Assembly (NCBI GenBank): GCA_019218445.1
Contig: JAHUUM010000004.1
Span: 62,001 to 126,000 of the forward strand
Direction: 5' to 3'
DNA length: 64,000 nucleotides
From: Weeksellaceae bacterium TAE3-ERU29
GTDB lineage: Bacteria; Bacteroidota; Bacteroidia; Flavobacteriales; Weeksellaceae
Shown piece after piece: positions 13,341 to 32,133 of this stretch. Position numbers and translations under genes: made by a program. The notes below the pieces were generated by a model, which made no database searches, was not told the origin of the DNA, and saw nothing but the letters and a program-made list of their open reading frames with translations. How positions within the stretch are numbered: position 1 is the first letter of the stretch; each line of letters begins with the position of its first letter.

Positions 13341-15341
13341 TCATTCAATAATAAAACTGCCCTTTTGCTGAGTATAGTACAAGGGCTTTTCTTTTTGTAA
13401 TTTCTCTGCTAAAGATTTATAATTACTCGCATCTAATATCAATAATTGATTTTCTTTTAATTTTAAATCTTGATTAAATTTCCCTTTCGAGCCTAATATG
13501 TAATTTATTTCTTTTGGCAATTCTTCTTTTTGCGGATTTATAACCAATAATTTATTTTTAAAAGCTATTAGATTTTTAGTTTTATTAAATTCCTTCCGAC
13601 TAAAATCCTCGTTGAAATCAAAATATTTTACATTCCTAATTTCCTCTTGCGTAACAAATGGATTTATCGTGTAATTTTCTAAATTCGCTTTATCCTTTTG
13701 TGTTGTAAAAACGTGTAAATCCAATCCGTTTCGGTAAGCAATTACACTTTCTTTGTATTGATTAAAGATTATAAATTGTTGCTTTTGTTTGCTTTGGTAT
13801 AAATCATAAAAACCACTCAACTCGAAAATAACAACTAAAGAAATTAGATAACTCAACTTTCTAAAACTGAATCTTAAAATCAAAAATGGGAGAAAAATAA
13901 ATCCAACAAACCAAACTAAAATCTGAACTCTATTCCAATGAATATTTTTGACAACGAAAATATCTGAATAAGCACTTAAATTTAAAATAGCATTAAATAT
14001 CCCGAAAAATAGATTAATCACATTCGTAAATAAATCACACCAAAAACCTGTAGCAATCAACAATAAAGTAATAAAACTAAGGACAACCAACAGCATTGCC
14101 AAAGGTAGAAAAATCAAATTCCCGAATAAAAACAACCACGAAAATTGATGGAAATAAAAAATAATTATCGGTAAAACACCCAACTGAACAGATGTGGTAA
14201 GCAATAAAATATCATATATTTTTGATTTTATTCCTTTCAATTTCGGTTTTAAAGGCTTTAATAATTTAGCATACCAAACGATAAAAAACACCGCCGAATA
14301 ACTTAACTGAAAACCGACATCAAACAAATTATTCGGGTTGATTAAAAGTAAAACAAACGCAGTAAACGCCAAAGTGTGAAATAAATTATTGTGTCTTTGC
14401 ATGAGAAATCCCACGCTGTAAAAACTAAGCATAAACGCCGACCGAACAACCGAAGGCGTTGCCCCGACAAACCAAGCATAACCCCAAATTAAAATTAAAC
14501 TGAGAATAATTCTGAGGTTTCTTCCGTGTTTTAAAAACAAAATCGGGTAAAGTATTAAAAATAACAATTCATAAATTATCACGACATGCAACCCCGATAT
14601 TGCAAATAGATGAGAAACACCCGCAACCGAAAGTTTTTGTCGCCATTCGGTATCCATATCCATTCTATCGCCCAAAGCCAATGCCTGAATAAAAATCCGG
14701 CTGGATTCGCTAAAACCTTTTTCTTTTAATTGCTTTTTAAAATTCGATTTAAAAACTGATAATTTATAATTTAATGAGCCATTAGGGTTTTCTACCATTA
14801 AAACCGAATCGGAAAACATTTGCACTCCCACTCTACCCCTCAACATATACTCTTTATAATTGAATTGATGAGGATTTTTTGGACTTTCTATTTCAGACAC
14901 ACTTCCTCTCAACCACAATTCTTGCCCCGTAAAATTCTCCTGAAACTTTTTAGGGATATATAACAGCAAGTTTTGATTCTTTAAAACAGAATCTTCTTGA
15001 ACAGTAACTTCAATTATTTTTGTTTTATACTTAAAATATTTATCACTCGGTTTTAAAACTTCAGCTATATCAATTTTCATAATTGAATTTTCTATTGGAG
15101 CTATTTCTGAAAGAATATTCCTATTATAATTCTCAAAACTCAAAGCTCCCAAAACAATACAAAAAACACAACTAAAAATTGAAAATAAAGTTTTTCTTTT
15201 AAGAAAAAGTAAGACTAATAAAATTAATATTGCACTAATTATTAATCCCCATAAAATATTGACATTGAAAGCATATTGATTAGACGCAAAAATCCCAATG
15301 CATAAAAAGAATAACCAAAATGCAAAGGGATAATATTTCAT
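13341..15341 (-). CDS. comEC: ComEC/Rec2 family DNA uptake channel
   Basis: Inner-membrane channel for single-stranded DNA in natural competence. 666 residues: two N-terminal spans with a DUF4131-type OB segment (about 1-190), then the polytopic competence domain with FIQALALGDR, the diagnostic HLFAISGLHV and GATPSVVRSAFM, and about seven further spans. The last 150 residues look like a degenerate remnant of the metallo-beta-lactamase tail, without the HxHxDH zinc motif. It is a single gene with no other competence genes nearby. Confidence 0.88.
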   Translation of the reverse strand: MKYYPFAFWLFFLCIGIFASNQYAFNVNILWGLIISAILILLVLLFLKRKTLFSIFSCVFCIVLGALSFENYNRNILSEIAPIENSIMKIDIAEVLKPSDKYFKYKTKIIEVTVQEDSVLKNQNLLLYIPKKFQENFTGQELWLRGSVSEIESPKNPHQFNYKEYMLRGRVGVQMFSDSVLMVENPNGSLNYKLSVFKSNFKKQLKEKGFSESSRIFIQALALGDRMDMDTEWRQKLSVAGVSHLFAISGLHVVIIYELLFLILYPILFLKHGRNLRIILSLILIWGYAWFVGATPSVVRSAFMLSFYSVGFLMQRHNNLFHTLAFTAFVLLLINPNNLFDVGFQLSYSAVFFIVWYAKLLKPLKPKLKGIKSKIYDILLLTTSVQLGVLPIIIFYFHQFSWLFLFGNLIFLPLAMLLVVLSFITLLLIATGFWCDLFTNVINLFFGIFNAILNLSAYSDIFVVKNIHWNRVQILVWFVGFIFLPFLILRFSFRKLSYLISLVVIFELSGFYDLYQSKQKQQFIIFNQYKESVIAYRNGLDLHVFTTQKDKANLENYTINPFVTQEEIRNVKYFDFNEDFSRKEFNKTKNLIAFKNKLLVINPQKEELPKEINYILGSKGKFNQDLKLKENQLLILDASNYKSLAEKLQKEKPLYYTQQKGSFIIE

Positions 15342-15396
15342 TTCTTAAATATAGTGAAATAAATTAAAAAATTTATTTCTTTTCCCATTATTATAA

Positions 15397-15404
15397 TAAA
15401 TTTG
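15397..15404 (+). promoter_or_regulatory. Promoter -7 box of the TonB-dependent receptor gene
   Basis: TAAATTTG 41 nt upstream of the receptor ATG; no clear -33 TTG. I see no Fur-like palindrome next to it. Confidence 0.5.
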
Positions 15405-15445
15405 CATTTCTTTCAAAATAACATCTATTTTATTAAATATATTAC

Positions 15446-17602
15446 ATGAAAAAGTTTGCAATATTAGTAGTCATTCTTTTTAGTTCAGGTTTAGTAATGG
15501 CTCAAGAGTATGAGAATCAATATGTGTTAGATTCTATTGTTGTTCAAAGTAAATCAAAAGAGAAAAAAGAACGTAGGGAATTTATAAAGCATGCACAGAC
15601 TACAAATGTACTTACCTCGTATGATACCGAAAGAAACAATCCTAATTATATTGAGCAAAGTTTAGGAGCATTGCCGGGTGTTCAAGTAGACAAAAGAACA
15701 CAATTTGGAGGACAACGAGTGGTATTAAGAGGTTACGGAAATGACCAAAAGTTCAATAGCTGGGGCGTTAAGTTTTATCTGAATTCCGTGCCGATTACCA
15801 ATGCAGACGGAATTACGATTTTAGAAGATATAGATTTCTCTCTTATCAATAATATAGATGTAATAAAAGGACCAGCAAGTACGCTTTACGGCGGCGGTGT
15901 CGGCGGTGTTGTAAAATTCTATATAGAACCCGAAATTCAGAAAGGTGTAGGCCTTTCACAAAAAACTATGTTTGGGGCATTTAATACTTTTAATTCAAAT
16001 ACACGGGTAGACGCGGTTTCAGATAATTATTCTATTTTATTTAATTACGGGCATTTAAGCAGTGACGGATACAGACCTAGAGGAAATACTAACAAAAATA
16101 ATTATACTTTTCTGGGTAATTTTAAATTAAATTCTAAACAGAAATTAATGGTTTATGCTACACACAATAATTCCTTTGAGGGAGTTCCCGGGCAGATTTC
16201 TTTTGATGATTATTATGCCGGAAAAGACCCCGGAAACGAAGCGTACGGCAGACGGAACGCACACAATCATTTCATTGGGACTCGTGCAATGATAAATCAC
16301 CAATGGGATATTTTACCGAATATTAATAATAATACGTCTATTTTTTATCATACTTTAGATACAGAAAGAGTGGCGGCGGGTGCCTACGAGATTACAGAAC
16401 AACCAAGTTATGGTTTCCGAACATCATTTAATGGTGATTTTAAATTAAGTTCTTCTTTCGAGGATATTTTAGAAGTAGGAGCAGAATATTTAATTTCTCG
16501 TCCATTGGTTTCTAACTATCGATTTGCGGGAGATTTTAAAAATCCGCCTTTCCAAACGAAGCCTATCGGAAAAGGTTCTTATTTTAAGTATAATAATTTT
16601 GCTACATCTTTTTTTGCATCTAATCGATTAGTGTACAAACCATTTAATCTATCCTTAATTACAGGAATCAGTGGGAACACCATGGGATATGACAGAAAAG
16701 ATTTATTGAATTTCCCGGGATTATTAAGCAAACCTAAAACCGATGCATCTTTTAATAAAGATTTTCCGATTGTATTCACACCACATGTGGCATTGCAGAA
16801 ATTATGGGGAAATCAAATATTTAATTTGAGTTATAGCGAGGGATATAACGCACCCACAGCTTCTACTGCTTTTATAAAAGGGATTAATAAAACAAATGAT
16901 AATTTAAATCCTGAATATGCGAAAATGTGGGATTTTTCGGTTCAAGGAACTTTAAGTGAGGATAAATTAAGTTATCAAATTTCCTTATTTAATATAAATA
17001 TCAATGATAAATTATCTAAACTTTCGGCTAAAGATGAAAAAGGAAATCCGTATAGTTATTTTGCAAATACAGGAATGCAAGAAAACAAAGGTTTAGAATT
17101 TAGTTTGGGATATTTACACAGAGATTTGTCTTTCTTTAAAGAAATAAGACCTTATGCAAATGTGTCTTTATACGATTTTAAATATAAAAAATTTGAAACC
17201 ACAAAAGAGGATTTTACGGGCAATAAAGTAGTGGGAGTTCCTGCTGTAAAATATTCCGTAGGGTTCGATTTTGAAACCAATTTTGGTATTTATATGAGAA
17301 ACACATTTAATTATTTAAGTGATGTTTATACAGATTTCAGCAATAAAACCAATGTAAAAGGATTTTCTCAGTACAATGTAAAATTGGGTTATACTCAAAA
17401 ATTCGGAAATTGGAACGTTGATGCTTTTGTGCTTGGTAATAATTTGACTAATCAGATAAATTATACCTTTTTATTCTTAGGAAATGCAGTAGGAGATAAC
17501 GACCCTGATAACGGATATCCTTTAGGAACAATTACAGATGTAAATCCCGGACCGGCAAAAGCCTATTTTATGGGAGGTCTTAATTTAACGTATCATTTTT
17601 AA
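15446..17602 (+). CDS. TonB-dependent outer-membrane receptor
   Basis: Outer-membrane active transporter powered by TonB-ExbB-ExbD. 718 residues. Signal peptide about 1-19 (MKKFAILVVILFSSGLVMAQ). A plug domain (about 60-165) contains LGALPGVQVDKRTQFGGQRV, RGYG and DVIKGPASTLYGGGVGGVV. A 22-strand type barrel follows, ending YHF with a terminal aromatic. The N-terminus lacks the carboxypeptidase-like domain of SusC proteins, so a siderophore, haem or cobalamin type ligand is more likely than a glycan. The ligand is unknown. Confidence 0.88.
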   Translation: MKKFAILVVILFSSGLVMAQEYENQYVLDSIVVQSKSKEKKERREFIKHAQTTNVLTSYDTERNNPNYIEQSLGALPGVQVDKRTQFGGQRVVLRGYGNDQKFNSWGVKFYLNSVPITNADGITILEDIDFSLINNIDVIKGPASTLYGGGVGGVVKFYIEPEIQKGVGLSQKTMFGAFNTFNSNTRVDAVSDNYSILFNYGHLSSDGYRPRGNTNKNNYTFLGNFKLNSKQKLMVYATHNNSFEGVPGQISFDDYYAGKDPGNEAYGRRNAHNHFIGTRAMINHQWDILPNINNNTSIFYHTLDTERVAAGAYEITEQPSYGFRTSFNGDFKLSSSFEDILEVGAEYLISRPLVSNYRFAGDFKNPPFQTKPIGKGSYFKYNNFATSFFASNRLVYKPFNLSLITGISGNTMGYDRKDLLNFPGLLSKPKTDASFNKDFPIVFTPHVALQKLWGNQIFNLSYSEGYNAPTASTAFIKGINKTNDNLNPEYAKMWDFSVQGTLSEDKLSYQISLFNININDKLSKLSAKDEKGNPYSYFANTGMQENKGLEFSLGYLHRDLSFFKEIRPYANVSLYDFKYKKFETTKEDFTGNKVVGVPAVKYSVGFDFETNFGIYMRNTFNYLSDVYTDFSNKTNVKGFSQYNVKLGYTQKFGNWNVDAFVLGNNLTNQINYTFLFLGNAVGDNDPDNGYPLGTITDVNPGPAKAYFMGGLNLTYHF

Positions 17603-30128: not shown

Positions 30129-30522
30129 TAGGTTCGGTTGCTAATACCATTTTATAATGATTTCTATTGGCAATATCCATCACGAAAACAATATCTTTTG
30201 TAAAGGTTTTTTCTTCTGCCTGAAGTATAAATGCAGGCTCTTGATTTCCTTGAAATATTGTTTTAAGTTCCCCTTCTAAACTCTCTTTAGTAATTGGTGT
30301 TTTATCTATAAAATACTCCCCGTTATTATTAATACTAATTACTAAATCTTTCTGTATTGCATCTGCCGGTACTCCATTTGCTTTTGGTAATTCTAAATTT
30401 AAAACATTGGTAGAAACCATTGTAGAAGTCAGCATAAAAAATATAAGCAACAGAAAAACGATGTCCGTCATAGATGACACACTGAAATCAGGGCTTATTT
30501 TATTTCTTCCTCTTAAATCCAT
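30121..30522 (-). CDS. exbD: Biopolymer transport protein ExbD
   Basis: Proton-conducting partner of ExbB. 133 residues: short cytoplasmic N-terminus, one membrane helix containing the functional Asp (VSSMTDIVFLLLIFFMLTS), and a periplasmic domain. Only one exbD is present here, whereas many Bacteroidota operons have two. It overlaps exbB by 1 bp. Confidence 0.93.
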   Translation of the reverse strand: MDLRGRNKISPDFSVSSMTDIVFLLLIFFMLTSTMVSTNVLNLELPKANGVPADAIQKDLVISINNNGEYFIDKTPITKESLEGELKTIFQGNQEPAFILQAEEKTFTKDIVFVMDIANRNHYKMVLATEPNE

Positions 30523-31211
30523 TACTTAACGATAGGTTTGTTCAATACTTCTAAAAACTCTGTTACAGTAGATTCCATTCGGTGAACACTTTTATCTACT
30601 TTCATTACTAAAAAGTTATAAGCAATATAAGCGACAATCCCTACTACCAATCCGGCAGCGGTTGTTAGCATTGCAGCGTAAATTCCACTGGACAACAACT
30701 TAGCATCTACTTGTCCCGCTGTATTCGCGATTTGGGCAAAAGACATTATCATACCTACAACTGTTCCTAAGAATCCTAACATTGGCGCTGCTCCGGCAAT
30801 TGTTGCTAAATAATTTACGTTTTTCTCTAATTTAAAAACTTCTAATTTCCCTGTGTTTTCTATCGCATCGCTGATTTCTTTAAGCGGTCGTCCTATTCTC
30901 AGCAATCCTTTTTCTATCATTCGAGATTCAGGCGTATTTGTTCTTTTACAAAGTTCTACGGCTGAGTTGATTTTACTTTCATAAACAAAATCTCTAATGT
31001 TATTTATGAAATTGTAATCATGCTTAGATTGTTTATTTATACTTAAATATCTCTCGAAGAAAAGATAAACAGTAAATAAAAATAAGATGAATAATATAAG
31101 AATTATTACTCCACCAAACCAGCCTCCTTGCTGTATCATATCATATAAGGAAACATTTGTGGTAATTGGCTCTGCCACATTTTGAACTAAACTTAAAGAA
31201 TCTTGTTGCAT
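30522..31211 (-). CDS. exbB: MotA/TolQ/ExbB proton channel protein
   Basis: Pentameric proton channel of the Ton motor. 229 residues with three membrane spans (about 33-55, 135-160, 180-205). The conserved GAAPMLGFLGTVVGMI and AMLTTAAGLVVGI blocks are present. First gene of the exbB-exbD-tonB-folC operon. Confidence 0.93.
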   Translation of the reverse strand: MQQDSLSLVQNVAEPITTNVSLYDMIQQGGWFGGVIILILFILFLFTVYLFFERYLSINKQSKHDYNFINNIRDFVYESKINSAVELCKRTNTPESRMIEKGLLRIGRPLKEISDAIENTGKLEVFKLEKNVNYLATIAGAAPMLGFLGTVVGMIMSFAQIANTAGQVDAKLLSSGIYAAMLTTAAGLVVGIVAYIAYNFLVMKVDKSVHRMESTVTEFLEVLNKPIVK

Positions 31212-31230
31212 TGTTTTATTTTTTCGACTA

Positions 31231-31238
31231 CAAATTTA
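31231..31238 (-). promoter_or_regulatory. Promoter -7 box of exbB operon
   Basis: TAAATTTG on the minus strand, 19 nt before the exbB ATG. Confidence 0.55.
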
Positions 31239-31372
31239 ATAAATGTCTTTAATATAAATAGCCTTTTATTAAAACATTAGGCAAACCCGCTACACATTTT
31301 ATATTGACTCTAATATAACTACTCTCTCTATGATATTATTGGTTTATATAAAAGCATACTTGCATTGAGCTA

Positions 31373-31430
31373 AAATATTTTTGATTTGAACCGAAATATT
31401 TTTGATTTGAACCGAAATATTTTTGATTTA
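31373..31430. repeat. 21-bp tandem repeat, about 2.7 copies
   Basis: Two perfect 21-bp copies (31373-31393, 31394-31414) of a unit with the core TATTTTTGATTTGAACCG, plus a partial third copy. It lies in the only gene-free stretch longer than 300 bp (31212-31704). Each unit contains TATTTTTG, which matches the TAnnTTTG promoter box on the plus strand, so it could also be a small promoter array. Confidence 0.85.
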
Positions 31431-31472
31431 AGGATAATTCTGCAACACTCCTTTTCCAAGTATTAAGAACTT

Positions 31473-31485
31473 TCCTCAAAGAGGA
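31473..31485. other. Small hairpin upstream of the candidate RNA
   Basis: TCCTC-AAA-GAGGA, a perfect 5-bp stem. Not followed by a T run. Confidence 0.35.
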
Positions 31486-31532
31486 TTAAAGGTTGTGTGT
31501 GTTGAAGGACTTGTTTTGAGGTTAGATGAATC

Positions 31533-31617
31533 GCGTTAGGGATTGTAGTGAAAATCCTTTTTGAGAGGTCTCGAGCAAAAAGATTGTAACGGAAAGCCCG
31601 ACCCGATAGGGAAACGC
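31533..31617 (+). ncRNA. Candidate structured RNA element (three-way junction)
   Basis: GCGTT (31533-31537) pairs with AACGC (31613-31617) to close the element. CTTTTTG (31557-31563) pairs with CAAAAAG (31576-31582), and CCC-GATA-GGG (31602-31611) forms a third, tetraloop hairpin. Single-stranded parts repeat the word GATTGTA (31541 and 31582). The composition is more G+C-rich than the flanks. I recall similar GCGTTAGGGAT...GCCCGACC sequences in other flavobacterial intergenic regions but cannot confirm this. The strand is inferred only from the presentation of the motif. Confidence 0.4.
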
Positions 31618-31704
31618 CCTAAATAAACTTATTAAGTATAACCTTTATTCTATCTATTGTCCGCTAAAAAACGGCACCATGCACTACGAATAATTAGATA
31701 AATA

Positions 31705-32133
31705 CTAATCTATTTTATTCAAAGAATAAACAATATCAACTTTTGGATTAACCTCTTTATTTAAGTTTATTAAATGTAATTTATTACCCTCTATTTGATA
31801 CTCAAACTCTTTTTTATTGTCTAATTTTATTATATTTCCTTCTTTTACGTATTTTCCATTATTTAAGATGCATTGATGCCTTCCCTGCACTTTCAAACTA
31901 TATGTATAGTCTTGATTTAGTGTAAGAAAAGCACTAATATTCTCATTGCAATCTGAGCAATTTTGAGATCCCATATAGGTCCCAAAATATGTGTCTGAAT
32001 CGTCATAAAAATCTAAATTAGAGTTAAACTCTATTTCTCCATATTTAGTTACAATAAATTCTTTGTTCTCTTTTGCACAACCTATTATCAATAAAAAAAT
32101 ACATAACAAACCAATTATCGTATTTTTTTTCAT
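31705..32133 (-). CDS. Lipoprotein with NlpE-like N-terminal domain
   Basis: 142 residues. Lipoprotein signal with lipobox IIGC (Cys19). The segment YMGSQNCSDCNENISAFLTL with a following DYTYSL strand and a GKYVKEGN turn resembles the N-terminal beta-barrel of NlpE, the copper-resistance and envelope-stress lipoprotein. The CxxC pair is conserved. A C-terminal NlpE domain is absent, so signalling to a Cpx system should not be assumed. Monocistronic and divergent from 32170. Confidence 0.65.
   Translation of the reverse strand: MKKNTIIGLLCIFLLIIGCAKENKEFIVTKYGEIEFNSNLDFYDDSDTYFGTYMGSQNCSDCNENISAFLTLNQDYTYSLKVQGRHQCILNNGKYVKEGNIIKLDNKKEFEYQIEGNKLHLINLNKEVNPKVDIVYSLNKID

Follow-up and report, generated by a model that had tools for sequence, protein, structure and literature searches.

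The window, a 64,000-nt stretch of a Weeksellaceae bacterium TAE3-ERU29 contig (JAHUUM010000004.1), carries a copy of Flavo-1, and we are somewhat inclined to read this family as a dispersed, non-autonomous, intergenic structured repeat with a REP/MITE-like life style rather than as one conventional small-RNA gene. Copies would arise by occasional transposition through an enzyme acting in trans and would then be inherited vertically for a long time. A dispersed repeat with a selected fold, rare movement and an orientation filtered or set at the replication fork is preferred because of the orientation pattern of the copies and because base pairs are kept through much of a genus.

Identity and fold of the window element

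The covariance-model search proposed as a check in the initial annotation of this DNA matched the Rfam model of Flavo-1 (RF01705) at 55.5 bits, against a gathering cut-off of 42 (cmscan, E 2.5e-9). That annotation had described an RNA-like element, branched and richer in G+C than its surroundings, with relatives between flavobacterial genes, a reading which is supported; it gave no name for the family, which has been catalogued as Flavo-1 since 2010. Two of the helices that it proposed for a three-way junction, GCGTT/AACGC (P1) and CCC-GATA-GGG (P3), lie exactly where it placed them. The proposed pairing of CTTTTTG with CAAAAAG holds as a helix but was one position out of register: TTTTTG (31558-31563) pairs with CAAAAA (31576-31581), and since C31556 is the partner of G31582, C31557 bulges out. 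The motif GATTGTA does occur twice, though not in unpaired segments as had been thought, both copies being facing strands of P2 with two 3x3 loops. The whole of P2 reads, in order, GGG/CCC, A·G, TT/AA, a 3x3 loop GTA/GGA, GT/AC, a 3x3 loop GAA/GTA, AATC/GATT, the bulged C and a T-run paired with an A-run. The G+C content was above that of the surroundings, as claimed (0.439 for 31533-31630 vs 0.274 and 0.307 in the flanks).

The long P2 with its conserved internal loops, kept by compensatory change, agrees with membership of the window element in Flavo-1, which has the same P2 with internal loops, lies between genes and belongs to Bacteroidota. The Rfam model leaves both flanks unpaired, whereas P1, as an outer stem, and P3 are added here; both are kept and P1 covaries, and this extension could improve the Rfam model. 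The predicted fold of the 85-nt segment had a free energy of -23.1 kcal/mol (z = -2.13), equalled or bettered by 8 of 200 shuffles, and the minimum-energy fold kept P1 and P3 with local hairpins in place of the long P2. By this modelling the bare fold appears only mildly above chance and is weak alone, and it is lifted above chance by the Rfam homology and by covariation in relatives. Two slots, the loop of P3 and the apex of P2, are filled with unrelated sequence from one relative to another, and the T-run after AATCC is not universal, being replaced by CACAGC or by other stems. A repeat of the CATTGCGA type was seen in the apical P2 loop of 16 of 214 copies, some of them orthologous; this CATTGCGA...TCGCAATG type of repeat (L105, L107, L109, L111-L113, L121, L123, L124, L161, L229 and others) looks as if hairpin loops were a landing site. 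The coordinates are collected in Table 1.

Table 1 Features of the window and of related loci
Feature	Position	Strand	Basis
Rfam Flavo-1 (RF01705) match	31530..31607	+	cmscan, 55.5 bits
Full structured core GCGTT...AACGCCC, three-way junction, 87 nt	31533..31619	+	sequence; edge profiles of relatives
P1 5' strand GCGTT, partner 31613-31617	31533..31537	+	pairing in own-genome and Paraclostridium copies
P1 3' strand AACGC	31613..31617	+	same pairing evidence as P1 5' strand
P2 5' strand, loops GTA (31545-31547) and GAA (31550-31552)	31539..31563	+	pair counts in relatives
P2 3' strand, loops GTA (31586-31588) and GGA (31591-31593)	31576..31599	+	pair counts in relatives
Variable apical slot of P2	31564..31575	+	unrelated sequence there in other copies
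P3 hairpin CCC-GATA-GGG	31602..31611	+	sequence; TGGC-GATA/GAAA-GCCA in Paraclostridium plasmids
5' extension common to window copy and four other own-genome copies	31491..31532	+	alignment of own copies, blastn
exbB, first gene of neighbouring Ton operon	30522..31211	-	PF01618, E 1.9e-30
NlpE-domain lipoprotein gene, other flank	31705..32133	-	PF04170, E 2.6e-6
Insert missing in three congeners	31247..31612		alignment placement
MITE-like units of ~147 bp, 19-bp TIRs, TA borders, Flavo-1 core	L268-L297, L156, L162, L212, L251, L254, L259, L262		genomes G151, G152
Paraclostridium bifermentans (Bacillota) plasmid copies	L473 3996-4071 (+) and 1182-1258 (-); L474 3996-4072; L475 578-654		over Rfam cut-off

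Selection on the fold of one strand

To read pairing in relatives, 214 distinct copies were gathered by a relaxed motif, and three variable pairs of P2 were standard or G·T in 214, 212 and 210 of them. A fair set of 110 copies was then considered, the 104 others having come from patterns, one of which fixed part of P2. In the fair set the three pairs were formed in 110, 109 and 109 copies, whereas 2000 reshufflings never gave more than 64, 91 and 92; this control leaves relatedness in, with orthologous copies included in the set. These pairs comprised two G·T and no A·C, and among 193 distinct apical stems the inside-helix mismatches on the Flavo-1 strand were 32 G·T vs 5 A·C. Since a G·T pair of the opposite strand would show up as A·C in this reading, the Flavo-1 strand is the one that must fold. 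The Flavo-1 strand was also the more stable one in 195/214 copies with DNA parameters and in 148/214 with RNA parameters.

The outer stem P1 was paired in all 13 copies of the own genome (12 perfectly and one with a G·T), nine as GCGTT/AACGC, among them the one with the G·T, and four as GCGTG/CACGC, and the four Paraclostridium copies have GAGTT/AACTC, so the compensatory changes whose absence the initial annotation had counted as contrary evidence are present in P1 as well as in P2. Among 18 copies found through their terminal inverted repeats (TIRs, see below), P1 was perfect in 11 and had one mismatch in four, and in three no partner was found by a script that required a C after the partner. 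These pairing patterns show that P1-P2-P3 is the fold of the Flavo-1 strand and that selection acts on it in this strand.

Such selection on one strand fits RNA and single-stranded DNA alike and does not tell them apart. It would be expected of a real small RNA (Rfam type 'Gene; sRNA') with its own promoter at each copy and an action in trans or on a protein, for which the tolerated G·T pairs also speak, but DNA hairpins tolerate G·T too. The 3x3 GNA/GNA loops resemble stable RNA motifs, which we count for the small RNA. The table entry of the 2010 survey likewise grades Flavo-1 as "probably" RNA, not cis-regulatory, in Bacteroidetes (Weinberg et al. 2010, PMC2864571). Against it, no conserved block was found upstream of the core in the edge profile of 96 copies, and a sigma-70-type promoter scan of the window, a type outside which the Bacteroidetes promoter lies, was no better than chance (2 vs 2.1 expected). 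At least 110 matches in one genome (G008) would be unusual for a small RNA. The part of a Flavobacterium psychrophilum study that bears on Flavo-1 places its matches sense or antisense to transcripts indistinctly and many in none, which argues against regular transcription (PMC9723704). We therefore regard a small RNA as an unlikely explanation of the family.

Number, distribution and persistence of copies

The GCGTTAGGGAT relatives that the initial annotation placed in flavobacterial intergenic DNA were indeed there: the window-type pattern matched at least 119 stretches, and among the 80 matches listed by name were Flavobacterium, Polaribacter, Aquimarina, Empedobacter, Pedobacter, Sphingobacteriales, Chitinophagaceae and Cytophagaceae. 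The own genome, an assembly of 52 contigs and 2.37 Mb, had 15 Flavo-1 matches at E<=1, 13 of them to the full model and 6 over the cut-off. In the bacterial family of the host, 123 of 148 genomes had a match at E<=0.001 (116 over the cut-off) and 25 had none at that threshold. The genome G008 held at least 110 matches at E<=0.01, 65 over the cut-off, with 150 of 1166 candidates scored; G109 and G032 held 47 and 38 at E<=0.001.

Outside the phylum, 4 of 72,556 plasmid records were matched by the window query and 5 by a Paraclostridium query, all from Paraclostridium bifermentans, and the four copies in the three plasmid stretches scanned were all above the Rfam cut-off. A G008-type query found no match among the plasmids, two queries found none among 50,697 phage records, and two patterns matched 2 and 0 stretches of viral contigs. 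A few single observations are added here. The Paraclostridium plasmid copies have a similar hairpin-like stretch (GACCGTAAGGTC or alike) about 80 nt upstream. A contig filed as a Bifidobacterium breve MAG (L198) has a Flavo-1 copy and is probably mis-binned Bacteroidota DNA. In L011/L021 two copies of different subtypes form an inverted pair less than 200 bp apart (G000, contig C1, 144169-144245 on the minus and 144439-144519 on the plus strand), and in L260 a copy is tandemly duplicated together with its 5' flank.

Persistence was followed at one G008 site (L095), for which the genus search gave 23 genomes, of which 21 were read and 18 had both anchors. A copy was present in 17 of these 18, two of them disrupted by an inserted repeat, and G146 had no copy at the site. 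The 16 intact sequences (15 with both anchors, and G134) showed three combinations of two changing pairs and no broken pair. A wholly neutral reading is disfavoured because pairs are kept at one site through much of the genus. At 28 further G008 sites, 25 were flagged as occupied in G126 and 19 in G037, and the alignment of one more (L088) showed the copy in G126. When empty sites with target duplications were sought in G037 and G126, most sites were shared, the few empty-looking ones had diverged flanks and no duplication was readable. Flavo-1 copies are numerous, are placed differently between species and can be retained at a single orthologous position across much of a genus. In the genus of G008 most tested sites are old, so that they give no sign of present mobility.

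Edges of the core and MITE-like units

Outside two lineages the edges of the core were sharp, T|GCGTT in 96 5' ends and AACGCCC|AAA in 81 3' ends, and little was conserved beyond them except for about 20 more 5' bases of weak consensus in the G008 type. GCGTTAG is a feature of integron attC sites, and a likeness to these was considered and dropped, as GCGTG and GAGTT variants exist.

In G151 (Aquimarina) and G152 (an uncultured member of the Flavobacteriaceae), the two genomes covered by the TIR search, the repeat ATCCTACTTTGTCATCTTA was found 58 and 53 times when up to 3 mismatches were allowed, the reversed control giving 2 and 4. The TIR stood at either end of 20 core-bearing units 101-149 bp long, the shortest of which (101 bp) has an internal deletion; TA adjoined the left end of 19 of them and the right end of 18, and 17 had it at both. 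The core was present in 19 of another 20 TIR loci. At the TIR loci the ORF search covered the sole long interval (2.6 kb) and gave no transposase: this interval encodes a nitroreductase and an FAD protein, with a separate unit on either side. A match to a known transposon end had been named at the outset as evidence against the element, and the only point of contact is this core within a MITE-like unit in two other lineages.

The window copy at its site

The gene-free gap that holds the window copy (31212-31704) is the fourth longest stretch of the window free of an ORF of 100 aa, and not the only long one as had been stated; two of the three longer ones contain tRNAs. Its neighbours were named correctly, ExbB and ExbD of the Ton operon on one side and an NlpE-domain protein on the other (Pfam). 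An insert of about 367 bp bearing nearly all of the core was absent from 3/3 congeners of the genus search, all of which retain exbB, the NlpE-like sequence and the next gene with a short spacer. The right end of this insert is uncertain, the last core bases being aligned, probably by chance, to congener sequence. In G065 (L086) the NlpE-like gene beside exbB looks shortened, its longest frame being 71 aa. Upstream of Flavo-1 in the same insert, a unit of ~21 bp, AAATATTTTTGATTTGAACCG, is repeated in tandem about three times (31372-31440).

Five own-genome copies, including that of the window, have about 40-50 bp of 5' flank in common; by blastn this flank reached 31496 at 95% in L009 and 31491-31492 in three others. 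No TIR was seen around the window copy, which lacks the TIRs with TA borders of a TA-target MITE, and no target duplication was proven there. The copy is probably a passenger at its site, because it lies in a lineage-specific insert upstream of exbB and is antisense to both flanking genes; it would be an ordinary family member.

Orientation relative to genes and replication

The context was counted for 71 copies, leaving out L017 (contig end), L022 (partial match) and L023 (29-base match, E 0.85). By crude ORFs, the genes on both sides were antisense to the element in 34 and sense in 11; the classes were (-,-) 34, (+,+) 11, (+,-) 14 and (-,+) 11, with one unread. A cis-acting element of the 5' or 3' UTR that stabilises mRNA or ends transcription would fit the intergenic position of the copies, and in G008, of the 56 copies with a downstream gene on the opposite strand, 16 had the end of the match no more than 16 nt from the stop codon of that gene. 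But both orientations occur among the 71 copies, an mRNA would in most cases carry the complement, the less stable of the two strands and the one on which G·U is not favoured, and the scan of the window spacer for intrinsic terminators found no terminator-like site. A UTR element is accordingly quite unlikely.

In G008 the strand of the copies switches with the chromosome arm. With the borders of the arms taken from GC skew alone (20 samples of 20 kb), copies lay opposite the leading strand defined by GC skew in 77/110 cases in G008, 34/47 in G109 and 25/38 in G032, the last not significant by itself (p 0.073), and in 136/195 when pooled (p 3.5e-8). For matches over the cut-off the counts were 44/65, 27/38 and 18/28 (p 0.185 for the last), pooled 89/131 (p 4.9e-5), and with freely fitted borders the approximate permutation p for G008 was 0.017; the copies share ancestry, which makes all p-values of this section optimistic. 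"Leading" here rests on GC skew alone because dnaA (G008 1.2 kb, G032 1.2 kb, G109 545 kb) is distant from the skew switches of these three finished genomes.

Gene direction was separated from replication in the 92 of the 110 G008 copies for which both neighbours were read. The copy was opposite the leading strand in 30/38 loci with genes on the leading strand, in 12/23 with genes on the lagging strand and in 19/31 with convergent or divergent genes. In a logistic model of these loci with borders from skew only, replication had p 0.0069 and gene direction p 0.029; for borders fixed once the copies were known, the values were 0.0013 and 0.021. Gene calls were crude ORFs throughout. The replication-strand bias is partly independent of gene direction. 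Across the three genomes, then, copies preferentially lie opposite the leading strand as defined by skew, and antisense to the genes next to them. The plus-strand window copy fits this trend weakly, the GC skew of the whole window being -0.056 and mixed by segment.

A structured strand with a tendency to avoid both messenger sense and the lagging-strand template would be expected if the stronger hairpin were lost or harmful where it is single-stranded. For a dispersed repeat, replication may have shaped orientation by removal of the stronger hairpin strand when it is in the lagging-strand template; alternatively, insertion itself may use single strands at the fork. In a further reading, Flavo-1 would be a replication-coupled single-strand element, with one strand selected, its genomic orientation set by fork direction and, in some lineages, capture as a TA-target MITE. 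A single strand annealed to the lagging template might then insert and end in the nascent lagging strand, or the element might serve the fork. We think this doubtful, but if true, the "noncoding RNA" family would be a DNA element by nature.

A single-stranded DNA signal that works at replication forks, such as a hairpin for repriming or protein loading, and that is kept for this role and oriented with replication, would also account for the folding selection on one strand and for the orientation bias, which was pooled over three genera and is partly independent of genes. The copies on circular Paraclostridium plasmids, in one case with a replication initiation gene about 2 kb away, agree with it. 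It is nevertheless very improbable: numbers within one family range from none detected to at least 110 matches, 25/148 genomes being without a match at E<=0.001, the folded strand is the partner of the exposed lagging template and not the template itself, and we know of no protein for such a signal.

Search for a mobilising enzyme

For a dispersed repeat moved in trans, a recurrent neighbour gene was considered as mobiliser and rejected, there being no transposase among the clusters read. The clustering by blastp took in 825 ORFs from 119 stretches, with the largest cluster spanning 7 loci, and no transposase partner was found among the 25 largest clusters, which were read by eye, with Pfam searches of 8 representatives (ABC-F, FAA hydrolase, xylose isomerase-like, HNH, M20, M56, AsnC and FGGY kinase). 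The HNH protein of L210 had relatives only in L210 among the loci compared and did not match the HNH protein between two Paraclostridium plasmid copies.

Y1_Tnp (PF01797) was absent from the own genome at E<=1 and from three congeners at E<=0.001, and it had a match in 99 of 148 family genomes. Flavo-1 was found in none of 30 Y1 loci (E<=0.01), of which 29 are class-1-like with Y-NQ and one unreadable, so that the result bears on this class; in 28 of the Y-NQ loci the HH typical of subclass 1.2 is visible as well. When 3.15 Mb were scanned for NP-type motifs, two ORFs came out, one a chance frame and the other a subclass-2.6-like RAYT with an interrupted frame. This RAYT (L446, G109, 15072-15504) is flanked by AACCTTGTCAAGGTTT palindromes (14800-15580) and has no Flavo-1 beside it, as a single case.

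Discussion

In the searched literature we did not find folding selection on the Flavo-1 strand, orientation against the skew-defined leading strand, or the ~147-bp TIR units of two lineages; the accessible part of the 2010 description does not contain the replication bias or the TIR form (PMC2864571). The available text of another paper has Flavo-1 among the most abundant Rfam sRNA families, in a table row without function (PMC9029176), and the literature found on Flavo-1 gives no function in the parts available. Strand-specific folding selection, orientation, the TIR form and the copies on Firmicutes plasmids together make the reading as a mobile repeat at the DNA level directly testable. They also advise caution against annotating every Flavo-1 copy as a small-RNA gene.

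Four known systems may be compared with Flavo-1. A single-strand transposase of the IS200/IS605 type acting on the hairpin strand predicts the folded strand in the lagging-strand template, which is opposite to the observed orientation: in the 136 of 195 copies, as far as GC skew defines it, the lagging template holds the complement. TA-target MITEs are of the IS630/Tc1-mariner type. The ~147-bp units of two lineages resemble them in their 19-bp TIRs and TA borders, but the window copy and the edge profiles of other lineages show no TIR, and no autonomous partner was found in these searches.

Like Flavo-1, REP elements are persistent. REP/REPIN-RAYT systems further share with it short imperfect palindromes, many intergenic copies and a structure on one strand (REP features partly from the portion of PMC3733652 at hand). 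Flavo-1 differs in being an 87-nt junction instead of a palindrome of 20-40 bp, in having no GTAG or CGTC foot, its ends being GCGTT/AACGCCC, and in that no neighbouring RAYT was seen at the loci tested. Subclass 2.6 RAYTs of Bacteroidetes adjoin "atypical secondary structures" according to the available part of PMC6006769, and these are similar to Flavo-1 in phylum, in their unusual folds and in having copies elsewhere in the genome. This comparison is by description, and the palindrome at the one candidate gene (L446, n=1) is a different one.
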